From: Beijerinckiaceae bacterium
GTDB taxonomy: Bacteria > Pseudomonadota > Alphaproteobacteria > Rhizobiales > Beijerinckiaceae
Direction: 5' to 3'
NCBI GenBank assembly: GCA_009773635.1
Contig: WSYC01000012.1
Span: 20,325-84,324 of the forward strand
Length of the DNA: 64,000 nucleotides
Positions 306-38,315 of the stretch are shown in pieces. A program made the position numbers and the translations under genes. Under the pieces are notes generated by a model. It was not told the origin of the DNA. It made no database searches and saw only the letters and a list, made by a program, of their open reading frames with translations. The number at the start of each line of letters is the position of its first letter. Position 1 is the first letter of the stretch.

Positions 306-321
306 AATTTCTTGGTCTGTC

Positions 322-365
322 GCATTTTCTTCACGCGAACCGGAATCCACTTCGCTCGAAAACGC
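322..365. repeat. 44-bp palindromic repeat, type A, copy 1
   Basis: Terminal arms GCATTTTC (322-329) and GAAAACGC (358-365) pair apart from one G-U. Read on the minus strand, the core is GAGCGAAGTGG-N3-CCGGTTCGCGTGAAG. The same core and exact 44-bp length recur at 31002-31045 and 37551-37594. It sits one base from the livF stop codon. Confidence 0.75.
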
Positions 366-366
366 T

Positions 367-14060: not shown

Positions 14061-14069
14061 CGCGCGCCT

Positions 14070-14100
14070 TTTCAAGCGAAGTGCTCCGCGGTTCGCGTGA
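14070..14100. repeat. Degenerate type A palindromic repeat
   Basis: AAGCGAAGTG followed by CGGTTCGCGTGA matches the core of the 44-bp type A repeat, but the right terminal arm is missing. It lies in the 85-base space between the convergent zevB and ggt genes. Confidence 0.45.
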
Positions 14101-20346: not shown

Positions 20347-20391
20347 GCTTGATCCGAAAAAGTGGCCTCCGGTTTTTCGTGGCGATCATGC
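20347..20391. repeat. Palindromic repeat, type B, copy 1
   Basis: Core GAAAAAGTGG-N3-CCGGTTTTTCG lies between arms GCTTGATC (20347-20354) and GATCATGC (20384-20391), with one mismatch. A perfect second partner GATCAAGC lies at 20400-20407. It fills the 67-base gap between the COG0523 gene and the WD40 gene. Confidence 0.65.
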
Positions 20392-21405: not shown

Positions 21406-21449
21406 CCATGCACCCTAAAAGTGGAAACCGGTTTTCGGACAAGGGCATG
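21406..21449. repeat. Palindromic repeat, type B, copy 2
   Basis: Core AAAAGTGG-N3-CCGGTTTTCGG lies between arms CCATGC and GCATGG, with an additional CCCT/AGGG pair. It lies directly after the WD40 stop codon, upstream of the 90-residue gene. Confidence 0.65.
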
Positions 21450-29995: not shown

Positions 29996-30976
29996 CTACG
30001 CGATCTTGCCGCCGAGTTCATCCTCGATATGCACCTTGAGGATATCCTCGAAACTCGACTCGGCGCGGAACCCGAGCGCTTGCGCCCGCTTCGCGTCGAA
30101 CTTGCGCGGCCAGCCTGCGACGATCTTCTCGATAACGGGATCGCGTTCACGCCGGATACGGGCAACAACCTTCTCGCCGCCGATCTTGCGCAGCGCCTCG
30201 ATTTGCTCGCCGATCGTGCAGGCGAGCCCCGGCATGGTGAGGTTGCGGCGCGGCCCAACCTTGGCGCCATCAATCATTGCAGCGTGAATGAGGAAGCCGA
30301 CCGCCGCGCGCGGGCTTGCGTGCCAGTGCATCACCTCATCCGAAACCGGGAGAACCGCCTCCTTGCCTGCGAGCGGCTCGCGGCAGATGTTGGAGAAAAA
30401 GCCTGAGGCCGCCTTGTTCGGCAGACCCGGCCGTACGCAGATCGTTGGCAGACGAATGCCGATGCCATCGAAAAACCCCTTGCGGGTGTAGTCCGCCAGC
30501 AGCAGTTCGCCGATGGTCTTCTGCGTGCCGTAGCTTGTCAGCGGCGTGTTGAAAAATTCGTCGCCGATCGCCTCCGGGAACGGAGCGCCGAACACCGCGA
30601 TCGACGAGGTGAAAACCACGCGCGGGCAATAGCCATCGCCGATCCGGCGGATGGCATCGAAGAGATTGCGCGTGCCATCAAGATTGATGTGATAGCCCTT
30701 CTCGAAATCGGCCTCCGCCTCACCCGAGACGATCGCCGCGAGATGGAAGATCACATCCGGGCGCGCGATCAGCAGCTTTTCGGCACCGCCCGCCATCGCG
30801 AAATCGGAGGCGAGGCATTCGCATGAGAAGGGCGCTGCGGCTGGCGCAGTCGGCATGACGATGTCGTGCATGATCACCCGGCTGATGGGAATACCACCAA
30901 TTCGGCCATCTTTGGCCAGGCGCTGCGCCAGCTTGCGACCGACCATGCCGGCCGCACCGAGAATCAGGATTTTCAT
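29996..30976 (-). CDS. NAD-dependent epimerase/dehydratase family, D-erythronate dehydrogenase-like
   Basis: Extended short-chain dehydrogenase of 326 residues with N-terminal GAAGMVGRKLAQRLA and the catalytic pair Tyr/Lys in TSYGTQKTIGE. The overall layout (GGIPISRVIMHDIVMP early, then a VRPGLPNKAASGFFSNI segment) resembles DenD, the D-erythronate dehydrogenase. The start ATG 30976 gives the canonical MKILILGAAG; the frame is open further only because it runs into a palindromic repeat. It is in the same orientation as the downstream-acting SDR and dehydratase genes. Confidence 0.8.
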   Translation of the reverse strand: MKILILGAAGMVGRKLAQRLAKDGRIGGIPISRVIMHDIVMPTAPAAAPFSCECLASDFAMAGGAEKLLIARPDVIFHLAAIVSGEAEADFEKGYHINLDGTRNLFDAIRRIGDGYCPRVVFTSSIAVFGAPFPEAIGDEFFNTPLTSYGTQKTIGELLLADYTRKGFFDGIGIRLPTICVRPGLPNKAASGFFSNICREPLAGKEAVLPVSDEVMHWHASPRAAVGFLIHAAMIDGAKVGPRRNLTMPGLACTIGEQIEALRKIGGEKVVARIRRERDPVIEKIVAGWPRKFDAKRAQALGFRAESSFEDILKVHIEDELGGKIA

Positions 30977-31001
30977 TGTTTGTCTCTCATTGCTGAATGT
31001 C

Positions 31002-31045
31002 GCCTTTTCTTCACGCGAACCGGTTCCCACTTCGCTCGAAAAGGC
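31002..31045. repeat. 44-bp palindromic repeat, type A, copy 2
   Basis: Perfect arms GCCTTTTC (31002-31009) and GAAAAGGC (31038-31045) flank the type A core. It lies between two minus-strand dehydrogenase genes and ends three bases before the stop codon of the SDR gene, so it would form a hairpin in the intergenic mRNA. Confidence 0.75.
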
Positions 31046-31048
31046 TTT

Positions 31049-34629: not shown

Positions 34630-35802
34630 ATGCTCGACATCGTGCCCGCCTTCGCCCGCATCGGCGAGGAAAACGCCTTTGCCGTCCTCGCTCGCGCCAC
34701 AGAACTTGCGCGTCAGGGCAAGGACATCATCAACCTCGGTATCGGCCAGCCAGATTTTCCCACACCCCCGCATATCGTCGAGGCTGCGATCAAGGCACTG
34801 CGTGACGGGCACCACGGCTACACGCCGGCGACCGGCATCCTGCCGCTGCGCGAGGCCGTGGCGGCTGATCTGCACAAGCGTTATGGCGCGAGTGTTTCGC
34901 CGGAACGGGTGATGATCGTCCCCGGCGGCAAGGTGACGATGTTCATGGCCATTCTGATGTTCGGCCAGCCGGGTGTCGAGATTCTCTACCCCGATCCCGG
35001 CTTCCCGATCTATCGCTCGATGATCGAATTCACCGGCGCGACGCCGGTCCCGGTGCCGATCCGCGAGGAGAACGGCTTCGCCTTCTCCGCCGATGAAACG
35101 CTCGCGCTCATCACGCCGAAAACGCGGCTGCTCATCATCAACTCGCCCGCGAACCCGACCGGTGGCGTGACCCCGAAGAGCGAGATCGACAAGCTGGTTG
35201 CCGGCCTCCAGCGCTTCCCGCGCGTCGCCCTGATGTCCGACGAAATCTACGACCAGATGACGTATGATAACGCGGTGCACGTTTCGCTGCTGAACTACCC
35301 TGAAATCCGCGACCGGCTGATCCTGCTCAACGGCTGGTCGAAAACCTACGCGATGACCGGCTGGCGCATGGGGTATTCGGTCTGGCCGGAGGCGGCCTAT
35401 GAAGCCGCGCGCAAGCTTGCGGTGAATTCCTATTCCTGCGTCAACGCGCCGGCGCAATGGGCGGGCATTGCCGCGCTGGAAGGCCCGCAGGATGCGGTCC
35501 ACGCGATGATGCGGGAGTTCGACCGTCGCCGCAAAGCCGTTGTTGCCGGGCTCAACGCGTTGCCGAATGTCACCTGCCTGACACCGACCGGGGCGTTCTA
35601 TGCCTATCCTAACATCAAGGCGACAGGCTGGAAGGCCAAGAAACTCGCCGCGCAACTGCTGGAGGAAGCGGGCGTCGCGACCATCGGCGGCCCGGATTTC
35701 GGGGTCTACGGGGAAGGCTACATCCGCCTGTCCTACGCCAATTCGCTGGAGAATATCGAGCGGGCGCTGGCGCGGATGGGTGCGTTTCTCGCCAAAGCAT
35801 GA
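34630..35802 (+). CDS. PLP-dependent class I aminotransferase
   Basis: Fold-type I aminotransferase of about 390 residues. GIGQPDFPTP lies near the start, the conserved Asn and Pro lie in SPANPTGG, Asp in SDEIYD, the PLP Lys (about 238) in GWSKTYAMTGWRMG, and the substrate-binding Arg in YIRLSYANS. The second ATG (34630) has AGGA at ideal spacing, whereas the ATG at 34624 overlaps it, so 34630 is preferred. It precedes a PaaK-like CoA ligase, so an aromatic or other amino acid may be transaminated and its acid activated. Specificity cannot be read from sequence. Confidence 0.88.
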   Translation: MLDIVPAFARIGEENAFAVLARATELARQGKDIINLGIGQPDFPTPPHIVEAAIKALRDGHHGYTPATGILPLREAVAADLHKRYGASVSPERVMIVPGGKVTMFMAILMFGQPGVEILYPDPGFPIYRSMIEFTGATPVPVPIREENGFAFSADETLALITPKTRLLIINSPANPTGGVTPKSEIDKLVAGLQRFPRVALMSDEIYDQMTYDNAVHVSLLNYPEIRDRLILLNGWSKTYAMTGWRMGYSVWPEAAYEAARKLAVNSYSCVNAPAQWAGIAALEGPQDAVHAMMREFDRRRKAVVAGLNALPNVTCLTPTGAFYAYPNIKATGWKAKKLAAQLLEEAGVATIGGPDFGVYGEGYIRLSYANSLENIERALARMGAFLAKA

Positions 35803-35840
35803 TCAGGAAAAGTGGTCCCCGGTTTTTCGTCCGATCATGC
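35797..35840. repeat. 44-bp palindromic repeat, type B, copy 4, overlapping the aminotransferase stop
   Basis: Perfect arms GCATGATC (35797-35804) and GATCATGC (35833-35840) flank GGAAAAGTGG-N3-CCGGTTTTTCG. The TGA stop codon of the aminotransferase (35800-35802) is inside the left arm, so the repeat defines the C-terminus. Confidence 0.75.
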
Positions 35841-35892: not shown

Positions 35893-37128
35893 ATGAGCGA
35901 TTTTTTCGATGCCGTGGAAACCCGGCCGCATGAGCAGCGCGAAATCGCGCAGTTCAGCGAACTCCGGGATATTCTCGCCTGGGCAAGGCCTGCCGCACCG
36001 GCGCTCGACCGCCAGCTCGCCGGCATCGACATCGCCAGCCTGACTGATCGTGCGGCGCTGGCCGCCATTCCAGTGCTGCGCAAGGGCGATCTCCTGGGCA
36101 TGCAGAAGGTTGCGCCGCCCTTCGCCGGACTGACGACGACCGGGGACGGCATGTTGCGCCGCCTGCTGATGTCTCCCGGCCCGATTTTCGACCCCGAAGG
36201 CTATGCGGCGGACTGGTGGGGCGCGGGCCGCGCCTGTTATGCTGCCGGGTTCCGCAAGGGCGATATCGTGCTGAACACCTTCAGCTATCATTTCACGCCC
36301 GGCGCCTTCATCATGGAATCGGGCGCGCATGCAGTCGGCTGTGCGGTGATTCCTGCCGGCCCCGGCCAGACCGAGATGCAGATCGAGGCGATTGCCGCGC
36401 TCAAGCCGAATGCCTATGCCGGCACGCCGGATTTCCTGAAAATCCTGCTCGACAAGGCGGAGGAAGCCGGCAAGCCCGCGCTCTCGCTGAGGAAGGCTCT
36501 CGTTTCCGGCGCTGCCTTCCCACCGAGCCTGCAGGCCGCGATCAGCGCCAAGGGTGTCGAGGCCTATCAGGCCTACGCAACCGCCGATCTCGGCATCATC
36601 GCCTACGAAACCGAGGCGCGCGCCGGGCTTGTCGTCAACGAGGGCATCATCCTCGAAATCGTCAGGCCAGGCACGAACGAGCCTCTCCCCGATGGCGAGG
36701 TCGGTGAAATCGTCGTCACGCGGCTCAACAAGGATTACCCGCTCCTGCGCTTCGGCACCGGCGATCTCTCGAAGATCATCGATGGTGCCTCGCCGTGCGG
36801 GCGCACCAACCGCCGCCTCGCCGGCTGGATGGGCCGCGCCGACCAGCGCACCAAGGTGAAGGGCATGTTCGTCGATCCCGCCCAGATTGATGCTGTGGCA
36901 AAACAGCACCCCGGGCTCGGCCGGATGCGTCTCATCGTCACCCGCGAGAACGAAACCGATGTCATGACGCTGCGCGCGGAAAGCGAGAGCTTCGCGGGCG
37001 ATCTTGCGGCGGCGCTCGGCAAGGCGCTTCAGGCCACCACGAACCTGAAGGGGGCGATCGAACTCGTGCCGGTCGGCTCGCTGCCGAATGACGGCAAGGT
37101 CATTTCCGACGAGCGCCCGGCCGGATAA
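35893..37128 (+). CDS. Phenylacetate-CoA ligase-like adenylate-forming protein (PaaK family)
   Basis: A 411-residue protein with the overall layout of PaaK-type CoA ligases: AGFRKGDIVLNTFSYHFTPG, then YAGTPDFLKIL, a GEIVVTRLNKDYPLLRFGTGDL motif containing the ATP-contacting Asp, and KGMFVDP of the C-terminal domain. The canonical SSGTTG phosphate loop is not seen; at its place stands LTTTGDGM. Catalytic competence is therefore open. GGAG precedes the ATG. It lies 90 bases downstream of an aminotransferase on the same strand, with a palindromic repeat in between. Confidence 0.82.
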   Translation: MSDFFDAVETRPHEQREIAQFSELRDILAWARPAAPALDRQLAGIDIASLTDRAALAAIPVLRKGDLLGMQKVAPPFAGLTTTGDGMLRRLLMSPGPIFDPEGYAADWWGAGRACYAAGFRKGDIVLNTFSYHFTPGAFIMESGAHAVGCAVIPAGPGQTEMQIEAIAALKPNAYAGTPDFLKILLDKAEEAGKPALSLRKALVSGAAFPPSLQAAISAKGVEAYQAYATADLGIIAYETEARAGLVVNEGIILEIVRPGTNEPLPDGEVGEIVVTRLNKDYPLLRFGTGDLSKIIDGASPCGRTNRRLAGWMGRADQRTKVKGMFVDPAQIDAVAKQHPGLGRMRLIVTRENETDVMTLRAESESFAGDLAAALGKALQATTNLKGAIELVPVGSLPNDGKVISDERPAG

Positions 37129-37175: not shown

Positions 37176-38315
37176 ATGGCTATGATCAAGCCATCCCGTA
37201 TCCCCGCCCCCTTCGCCTCCGAAGCTGAAATGCGCGCCATCCGCCTTCCCGAGGGCCACTCGCCCGTCAAGAAGGGCAAGGTCGGCGTTCTGCTGCTCAA
37301 CCTTGGCACGCCCGATGGCACCGACTACTGGTCGATGCGGCGCTACCTCAAGCAATTCCTCTCCGATCGCCGGGTGATTGAGGTGCCGCGCCTCCTGTGG
37401 TGGCCGCTGCTCAACCTCATTATTCTCACGACGCGTCCGGGCCGGAAGGGCAAGGATTACGCGACGATCTGGAACAACGAGCGTAACGAAGGGCCGCTGA
37501 AAACCATCACCCGCGATCAGGCGGAGGGCTTGGCCAAACGCTTTGCAAAAGCAAAATCGAGCGAAGTGGGCACCGGTTCGCGTGAAGATTTTGCGTCTGG
37601 AAATAACGACGATAAAGTCATCGTCGACTGGGCGATGCGCTACCAGAACCCCTCGACCGAAAGCCGCATCGAGGCGTTGATGGCGGAGGGCTGTGACCGC
37701 ATCCTCCTGCTGCCGCTCTACCCGCATTATGCCGCAGCGACGACCGCGACCGCCAATGATGAAGCCTTCCGTGCGCTGATGAAGATGCGCTGGCAGCCTT
37801 ACGTCCGCGTCGCACCGGCCTATGCGGATGAACCCGCCTATATCGATGCGCTCGCGAACTCGGTGCGCACGCATCTCGCCGGGCTCGACTGGGAGCCGGA
37901 GGTGCTGATCGCCACTTTCCACGGCATGCCGCAGAAATATCTCGAAAAGGGCGACCCCTACCACTGCGAATGCCAGAAAACAGGACGCCTTTTGCGTGAA
38001 GCCCTCGGCTACGACAAGGATCGCTTCAAGATCACCTTCCAGTCCCGGTTCGGCAACGACCCCTGGCTCCAGCCCTATACGGACAAGACCGTGGAGGCGC
38101 TCGCCAAATCCGGCGTCAAGCGCCTCGCGATGATCGCGCCGGGCTTTTCTGCCGATTGCCTGGAAACGCTGGAAGAACTCGACGGCGAAAACCGCGAGAT
38201 CTTCGAGCACAACGGCGGCGAGAAATTCAGCTACATTCCCGCCCTGAACGCCAGCGAAGGTGGCATCGATGTCATCGAGGCCATCGCACGCCGGGAGTTG
38301 ATGGGCTGGCTCTGA
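37176..38315 (+). CDS. hemH: Ferrochelatase with an in-frame repeat-derived insertion
   Basis: Inserts Fe(II) into protoporphyrin IX as the last step of heme synthesis. The 379-residue product has VLLLNLGTPDGTDYWSMRRY, YPHYAAATT, catalytic His249 in TFHGMPQKY and the C-terminal GFSADCLETLEEL. Residues about 125-146 are additional compared with the usual family: they are encoded by a type A palindromic repeat (37551-37594) that keeps the frame open and lies just before DKVIVDWAMRY. The insertion falls in a loop before a conserved strand, so activity may be kept. The start could also be the third codon's ATG. Confidence 0.93.
   Translation: MAMIKPSRIPAPFASEAEMRAIRLPEGHSPVKKGKVGVLLLNLGTPDGTDYWSMRRYLKQFLSDRRVIEVPRLLWWPLLNLIILTTRPGRKGKDYATIWNNERNEGPLKTITRDQAEGLAKRFAKAKSSEVGTGSREDFASGNNDDKVIVDWAMRYQNPSTESRIEALMAEGCDRILLLPLYPHYAAATTATANDEAFRALMKMRWQPYVRVAPAYADEPAYIDALANSVRTHLAGLDWEPEVLIATFHGMPQKYLEKGDPYHCECQKTGRLLREALGYDKDRFKITFQSRFGNDPWLQPYTDKTVEALAKSGVKRLAMIAPGFSADCLETLEELDGENREIFEHNGGEKFSYIPALNASEGGIDVIEAIARRELMGWL
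37551..37594. repeat. 44-bp palindromic repeat, type A, inside hemH
   Basis: Perfect arms GCAAAATC (37551-37558) and GATTTTGC (37587-37594) flank GAGCGAAGTGG-N3-CCGGTTCGCGTGAAG. It has the same length and core as the two intergenic copies, but the arms differ and remain complementary to each other. Confidence 0.8.

Follow-up and report, generated by a model that had tools for sequence, protein, structure and literature searches.

The stretch of DNA analyzed here (the window, 64 kb, in which all coordinates are positions) comes from a genome of Rhabdaerophilum (order Hyphomicrobiales), a genus of free-living bacteria. This source genome (G000) comprises 3.24 Mb in 35 contigs and is 98.7% complete. 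The window contains the ferrochelatase gene hemH, whose coding sequence includes a short palindromic repeat (table 1). That a repeat lies inside hemH and keeps its reading frame had been reported in the first-pass annotation of this DNA and was confirmed: the 44-mer starts at a codon boundary and has a single match in the window at up to 3 mismatches, and none of 100 shuffled sequences matched. The added residues had been placed at 125–146; the start was retained, whereas the alignment moves the end to residue 143, with an uncertainty of about one codon at the borders. Likewise, the arms had been called perfectly complementary, which holds for the 8-bp outer arms and the 5-bp inner stem but not for the whole 44 bp, which is not one perfect palindrome. 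A 76-nt stretch around the palindrome folds better than shuffled sequences (z = -2.7; 2 of 200 shuffles equal). A known structured RNA at this site was rejected, as the Rfam search of 37400–37750 gave no match up to an E value of 10.

Table 1. Positions of hemH, its insertion, and repeat copies within the window
Feature	Position	Strand	Evidence
hemH, ferrochelatase, 379 aa	37176..38315	+	ORF; Pfam Ferrochelatase 1e-103; TIGR00109 hemH
Derived in-frame insertion, 57 nt, residues 125-143, KAKSSEVGTGSREDFASGN	37548..37604	+	Alignment with empty orthologs
44-bp palindromic repeat unit, purine-left-arm subtype	37551..37594	+	Window and genome pattern search; arm covariation
Outer left arm GCAAAATC	37551..37558	+	Complementary to 37587-37594; covariation across the 63 copies
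Outer right arm GATTTTGC	37587..37594	+	Pairs with 37551-37558; arm covariation
Inner stem left, GCGAA	37561..37565	+	Pairs with 37577..37581
Inner stem right, TTCGC	37577..37581	+	Pairs with 37561..37565
Second clear repeat copy, no coding-like frame across	318..366	-	Pattern search; third-position G+C
Third clear repeat copy, 5' edge of stop-to-stop ORF 29999-31048 (-)	30998..31046	-	
Decayed repeat copy	14066..14100	+	Inverted pairs I4, I5

The second and third clear copies had been described as intergenic. Our results agree, short of proof: no frame with third-position G+C of at least 0.65 on both sides runs across either of them. The third copy, being at the 5' edge of its ORF, probably precedes the actual start codon. 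Another family of repeats, alike in its GTGG-N3-CCGG core and different in its inner arms (AAAAGTGG...CCGGTTTT), was also observed at 20347–20380, 21406–21439, and 35797–35830; one of these copies shortly precedes the ORF at 35893.

We compared 110 HemH loci, which consist of 30 of the 59 whole genomes with a match and the best 80 of 587 contig matches, some genomes being present in both sets. The 19-residue insert was detected in three of them, namely the window and one other genome (G016, MAG BEIJ3), which is in the set twice (L033 and L061 are the same MAG contig) and has the same repeat DNA as the window. The other 107 loci have 0–11 residues at this position, indicating that the site tolerates changes in length. 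Ancestral protein sequence, which the first-pass annotation had raised as the opposing explanation of these residues, was rejected, because 107 of the 110 loci are without them and the remaining three carry the same repeat DNA. Within the genus (17 genomes), hemH is filled in two genomes (G000 and G016), empty in 14, and without a match in one (G010, 78% complete). The closest relative, G006, whose HemH is 95% identical over aligned residues, has an empty site. The 57-nt segment is a derived insertion which keeps the frame and belongs to a repeat family.

In the AlphaFold model of HemH (40 sequences; mean pLDDT 81.4, pTM 0.80), residues 128–144 have pLDDT values below 50 and are located between a helix (107–125) and a strand (148–154). 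The insert is thus modeled as a loop with no predicted structure, low pLDDT being no proof of disorder. As to the surface loop on which the first-pass annotation had proposed modeling, the result is a low-confidence loop between helix and strand.

The repeat occurs in 63 copies in G000 at up to 3 mismatches (0 for a reversed-pattern control) and, at the same threshold, in all 17 genomes of the genus, with 1–63 copies each. At up to 2 mismatches, it was matched in 22 of 199 genomes of the order, G000 and G001 included; the family is spread patchily over the order. Five plasmid records (four Bradyrhizobium and one Xanthobacter) match part of the element (46–52% of a 61-nt query), and exact core matches were found in ten viral-contig stretches. 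The unit has an 8-bp outer stem around a 28-nt middle, within which are a further stem of 5 bp and a core of the form GTGG-N3-CCGG. The outer arms are fully Watson–Crick over 8 pairs in 49 of the 63 copies; overall, 471 of 504 arm positions match, compared with at most 406 in 10000 permutations, a test which ignores the relatedness of the copies. In addition, three of the 61 distinct copies have A-T in place of one G-C pair of the inner stem. The stem arms covary. A chance origin of the repeat was rejected on the basis of the shuffles, the control, and the permutations. Two unusual arrangements were also observed. In G000, a head-to-tail array of five copies (L220, G000:C21:106101-106370) with a period of 60 nt is open in the sense frame; the ORFs on both of its strands gave no Pfam match, and it was left out of the coding counts. 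G090, a single 4.81-Mb contig, belongs to a different family of the order; one of its strands has 40 copies and the other 4. Among 20 of these copies (L269–L288), the analysis covered 17; most are outside long coding-like frames, and L285 and L286 are within long sense frames.

A genome search for other coding sequences with the repeat, as had been proposed, revealed that the original case was understated: 12 genes of G000 have an internal copy. Besides hemH, family matches were obtained for serS, topA, a glcE-like gene, a lutB/lldF-family gene, argC, an ampD-like amidase, a thiamine pyrophosphate (TPP) enzyme, and diaminopropionate ammonia-lyase (DAL), the glcE and ampD matches being below the cut-offs of those models. 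An hdaA-like and an imuB-like gene, neither of which has a Pfam match at 1e-5, were named by inspection, whereas the name of xdhC comes from a Rossmann domain; the hdaA copy has diverged too far to count among the 63. When the eight genes with family matches were compared with seven relatives using joined-piece queries, the matches were mostly 60–66 nt shorter, and that of lutB breaks at the insert. There are exceptions: serS of G004 is filled, the ampD genes of G004 and G009 are only 18 and 51 nt shorter because other residues stand there, and a few matches overrun their piece, giving 48, 57, 78, and 87 nt. DNA alignment shows empty sites for serS, topA, argC, ampD, and DAL, and for lutB with one relative; for glcE and the TPP enzyme it covers no relative's locus. 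The match is broken at the insert in seven of seven relatives for the hdaA-like gene and in all five relatives with a match for the imuB-like gene, while xdhC is 33–57 nt shorter in six relatives and matched only beyond the site in the seventh.

Eleven of the 12 internal copies share one sense frame. The xdhC copy is antisense, and a single sense frame for all internal copies was thus rejected. The hemH copy has five open frames and the consensus unit four; if frames are equally likely, the probability that at least 11 of 12 copies fall in one given frame is 2e-7 or 2e-6, respectively. Repeat copies also supply the last residues encoded by pdxJ, by xdhC (through a second copy), and by an ABC-3 permease gene, with a stop codon directly after the copy in pdxJ and xdhC. 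The xdhC gene (L026 and L030; G000:C32:47312 and 47920) therefore has two copies, one internal and antisense, the other C-terminal and sense. Three spurious-looking ORFs (L145, L148, and L152, the last without a Pfam match) were left out of the counts, and the remaining G000 copies either lie at the ends of genes or are in no clear coding frame.

Additional sense-frame copies were found elsewhere in the genus, in serS and cysS (G004 and G010), valS (twice in G004), glyS (G009 and G014), uvrB (G002 and G003), gcvPB (G009), dnaE2 (G001), pgi (G010), and an SDR gene (G008). For ten of these loci the identity comes from a model match, whereas G003 uvrB, G004 serS, and G010 cysS were named by likeness. 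As the search used the hemH peptide, these loci do not sample copies evenly; empty relatives were compared for serS alone. The sister G006 has 37 copies and none that is clearly internal and in frame, implying that entry into genes is no constant property. The filter used for G006 (third-position G+C of 0.65 on both sides) was somewhat stricter than that for G000 and would miss the G000 xdhC copy (0.62), so that "none clear" does not mean none. In serS (L002, L167, L150, L254, L241, and L244), the segment before the strand WLIPTAEVPL differs in six of nine aligned species; it is alike in G002, G014, and G009. This segment is not the repeat.

Purine-rich left arms (GCAAAATC, GCGAAATC, and the like) are present in 6 of 11 internal copies, that of hemH included, versus 2 of 52 others (P-value = 1.6e-4, Fisher's test, which overstates independence, the copies being related). 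Without imuB and xdhC, the split is 6 of 9 versus 2 of 54 (P-value = 3e-5). Openness does not explain this enrichment, because neither arm type closes the sense frame. Across the 17 genomes of the genus, the purine-left pattern was found in 24 places; in G006 it is present in 2 of 37 copies, too few to test, one of them at the N terminus of a QueG-like ORF. A speculative and rather doubtful extension is that this subtype is specialized for life in genes: exchanging the A and T runs of the paired arms would leave the hairpin intact and alter the peptide, so that selection at the protein level might have shaped a selfish DNA hairpin, which would spread in the guise of a tolerated peptide before crossing species on recombined housekeeping alleles.

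The history of the hemH allele was analyzed from trees and from divergence between species. Without the insert, hemH trees join G000 and G006 (support 0.995 and 100 for nucleotides, 0.976 for protein). G016 adjoins this pair weakly in the nucleotide trees (0.86 and 42) and groups with G009 in the protein tree. The inserts of G000 and G016 differ by three synonymous changes and no others; between these genomes, pS is 0.22 in the insert versus 0.54 in the rest of the gene (P-value = 0.025) and pN is 0 versus 0.10 (P-value = 0.028). Between G000 and G006, pS is 0.35 upstream of the insert (112 codons) versus 0.66 downstream (120 codons; P-value = 0.0001), with P-values of 0.11 or more for the other 20 of 21 hemH pairs. 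For serS, the same two genomes show the opposite direction (0.38 versus 0.18, P-value = 0.024; other 14 pairs, at least 0.18). These breakpoint P-values are raw across 36 tests, and the signal comes from one pair and one gene. The pattern suggests a recombination border near the hemH insert, and either species may have received the foreign DNA.

Because a non-sister shares the insert and synonymous divergence from the sister shifts there, transfer of the allele by recombination is suggested. Alternatively, the insertion might be ancestral to part of the genus, G006 and other relatives having lost it cleanly, without any allele transfer. The site and tail that G016 and G000 have in common fit such a history, as does the weak placement of G016 beside G000 and G006 in two of the three hemH trees. 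However, at least G006 would have to have lost the insert precisely and in frame, the inserts of G000 and G016 have diverged less than the remainder of their genes, and divergence from G006 shifts at the insert; we consider this history unlikely, although it retains some weight. Two independent insertions at the same codon, i.e., a target hot spot, would agree with the apparently same-site copies across species in serS (G000, G004, and G010) and, by eye, in glyS (G009 and G014) and uvrB (G002 and G003). Yet the tail GCGTCTG follows the palindrome in 1 of the 63 G000 copies, that of hemH, and is shared by G016 hemH, which makes a double insertion quite improbable.

It may also be asked whether the added peptide or the RNA hairpin is used, so that it modulates HemH activity or folding or the hemH mRNA. 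No amino-acid change separates G000 and G016 over the 19 residues and the purine-left subtype is concentrated in genes, both of which would favor a use; the predicted disorder of the insert, the near-identical peptides in unrelated enzymes, and the 107 of 110 HemH loci that do without it argue against one, and we regard it as a shade less probable still than a double insertion. As for an assembly artifact, repeats misassemble readily and G000 is in 35 contigs, but a separately assembled second genome is filled at the same codon, the frame is kept, and other genes show the same pattern. The first-pass annotation had already thought an artifact unlikely, and we give it a negligible chance.

We favor, with a probability of roughly 0.87, that a non-autonomous palindromic element entered hemH of a Rhabdaerophilum lineage in the sense direction and without loss of frame, where it would form a tolerated 19-residue loop, that it entered 11 other genes, and that the filled allele later moved, probably, between species. 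In this scheme, a member of a patchily spread family would have inserted into hemH, be translated as an unstructured loop that links a helix to the beta-strand after it, and be kept because the enzyme presumably tolerates it; the same element would have entered 11 other G000 genes, and homologous recombination would then probably have carried the hemH allele between species. The RAYT-type transposase domain Y1_Tnp (PF01797) was detected in none of the 17 genomes of the genus (controls positive, 5 of 14), by which a RAYT-driven REP was rejected. A MITE would be expected to have the inverted repeats of a parent IS and a target duplication; no such duplication was noticed by eye at the filled and empty sites of serS, topA, argC, ampD, and DAL. 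Thus, it is copy number and empty sites that argue for mobility. Our guess is that copying might proceed through a single-stranded hairpin by an enzyme other than RAYT.

Palindromes within genes are already a known kind, as both Rickettsia palindromic elements (RPEs) and intragenic REPs show. RPEs insert in frame into conserved genes, and a guanylate kinase with such an insert stays active with changed substrate affinity (PMC2229807 and PMC10969869). The likeness to RPEs drawn in the first-pass annotation holds for the way of working: according to the same papers, RPEs are palindromes found between genes and in frame in conserved genes, where they add peptide, and G000 likewise has in-frame copies in unrelated protein genes (12) plus copies elsewhere. 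The host differs (Rickettsia versus Rhabdaerophilum), and so does the size, 105–146 bp in PMC2229807 versus a 44-bp unit with about 60 nt inserted, the two being compared by description. Wolbachia palindromic elements, protein-coding palindromes of another alphaproteobacterium as cited in PMC2229807 and PMC3733652, are similar by description and belong to a different host.

The rarity of such insertions had been overstated. Intragenic REPs of the GTAG and CGTC classes were described in 2013 in many species, with tRNA synthetases and repair genes among their hosts (PMC3733652), and these short palindromes resemble the present repeat in host genes such as tRNA synthetases, uvrB, and DnaE2. GTAG REPs would be expected together with a RAYT (Y1_Tnp) transposase in the genome, a domain for which the 17 Rhabdaerophilum genomes gave no match, and with an unpaired GTAG tag at one end, whereas here GTAG is not constant, 3 of the 63 copies having it at their left border. 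According to PMC3733652, the CGTC class is without a dedicated transposase; the search of the Rhabdaerophilum genomes covered PF01797. The class has a CGTC tag and an 8–9-bp stem that starts with A/T pairs and encloses a 4–5-nt loop; in contrast, the first pair of the Rhabdaerophilum stem is G-C, and between its arms are 28 nt with a stem of their own. Of the 63 copies, 21 have the base triplet GTC after the stem and 17 have GAC. The repeat architecture fits neither tagged REP class.

No account of the Rhabdaerophilum repeat was found in a literature search with sequence and peptide strings and keywords, which did bring up works on related elements, subscription papers being mostly outside this search. 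In the literature searched, the repeat family, its burst into genes in one species, and the gene-concentrated, arm-swapped subtype are new, as is the contrast between sisters (12 internal copies in G000 versus none clear among 37 in G006). These results extend protein-coding palindromes to a genus in which filled and empty alleles of the same housekeeping genes exist in closely related species. Old questions thereby become testable, namely by which route such elements reach an in-frame position, whether the peptide carries any cost, and whether it is the peptide or the hairpin that is under selection.
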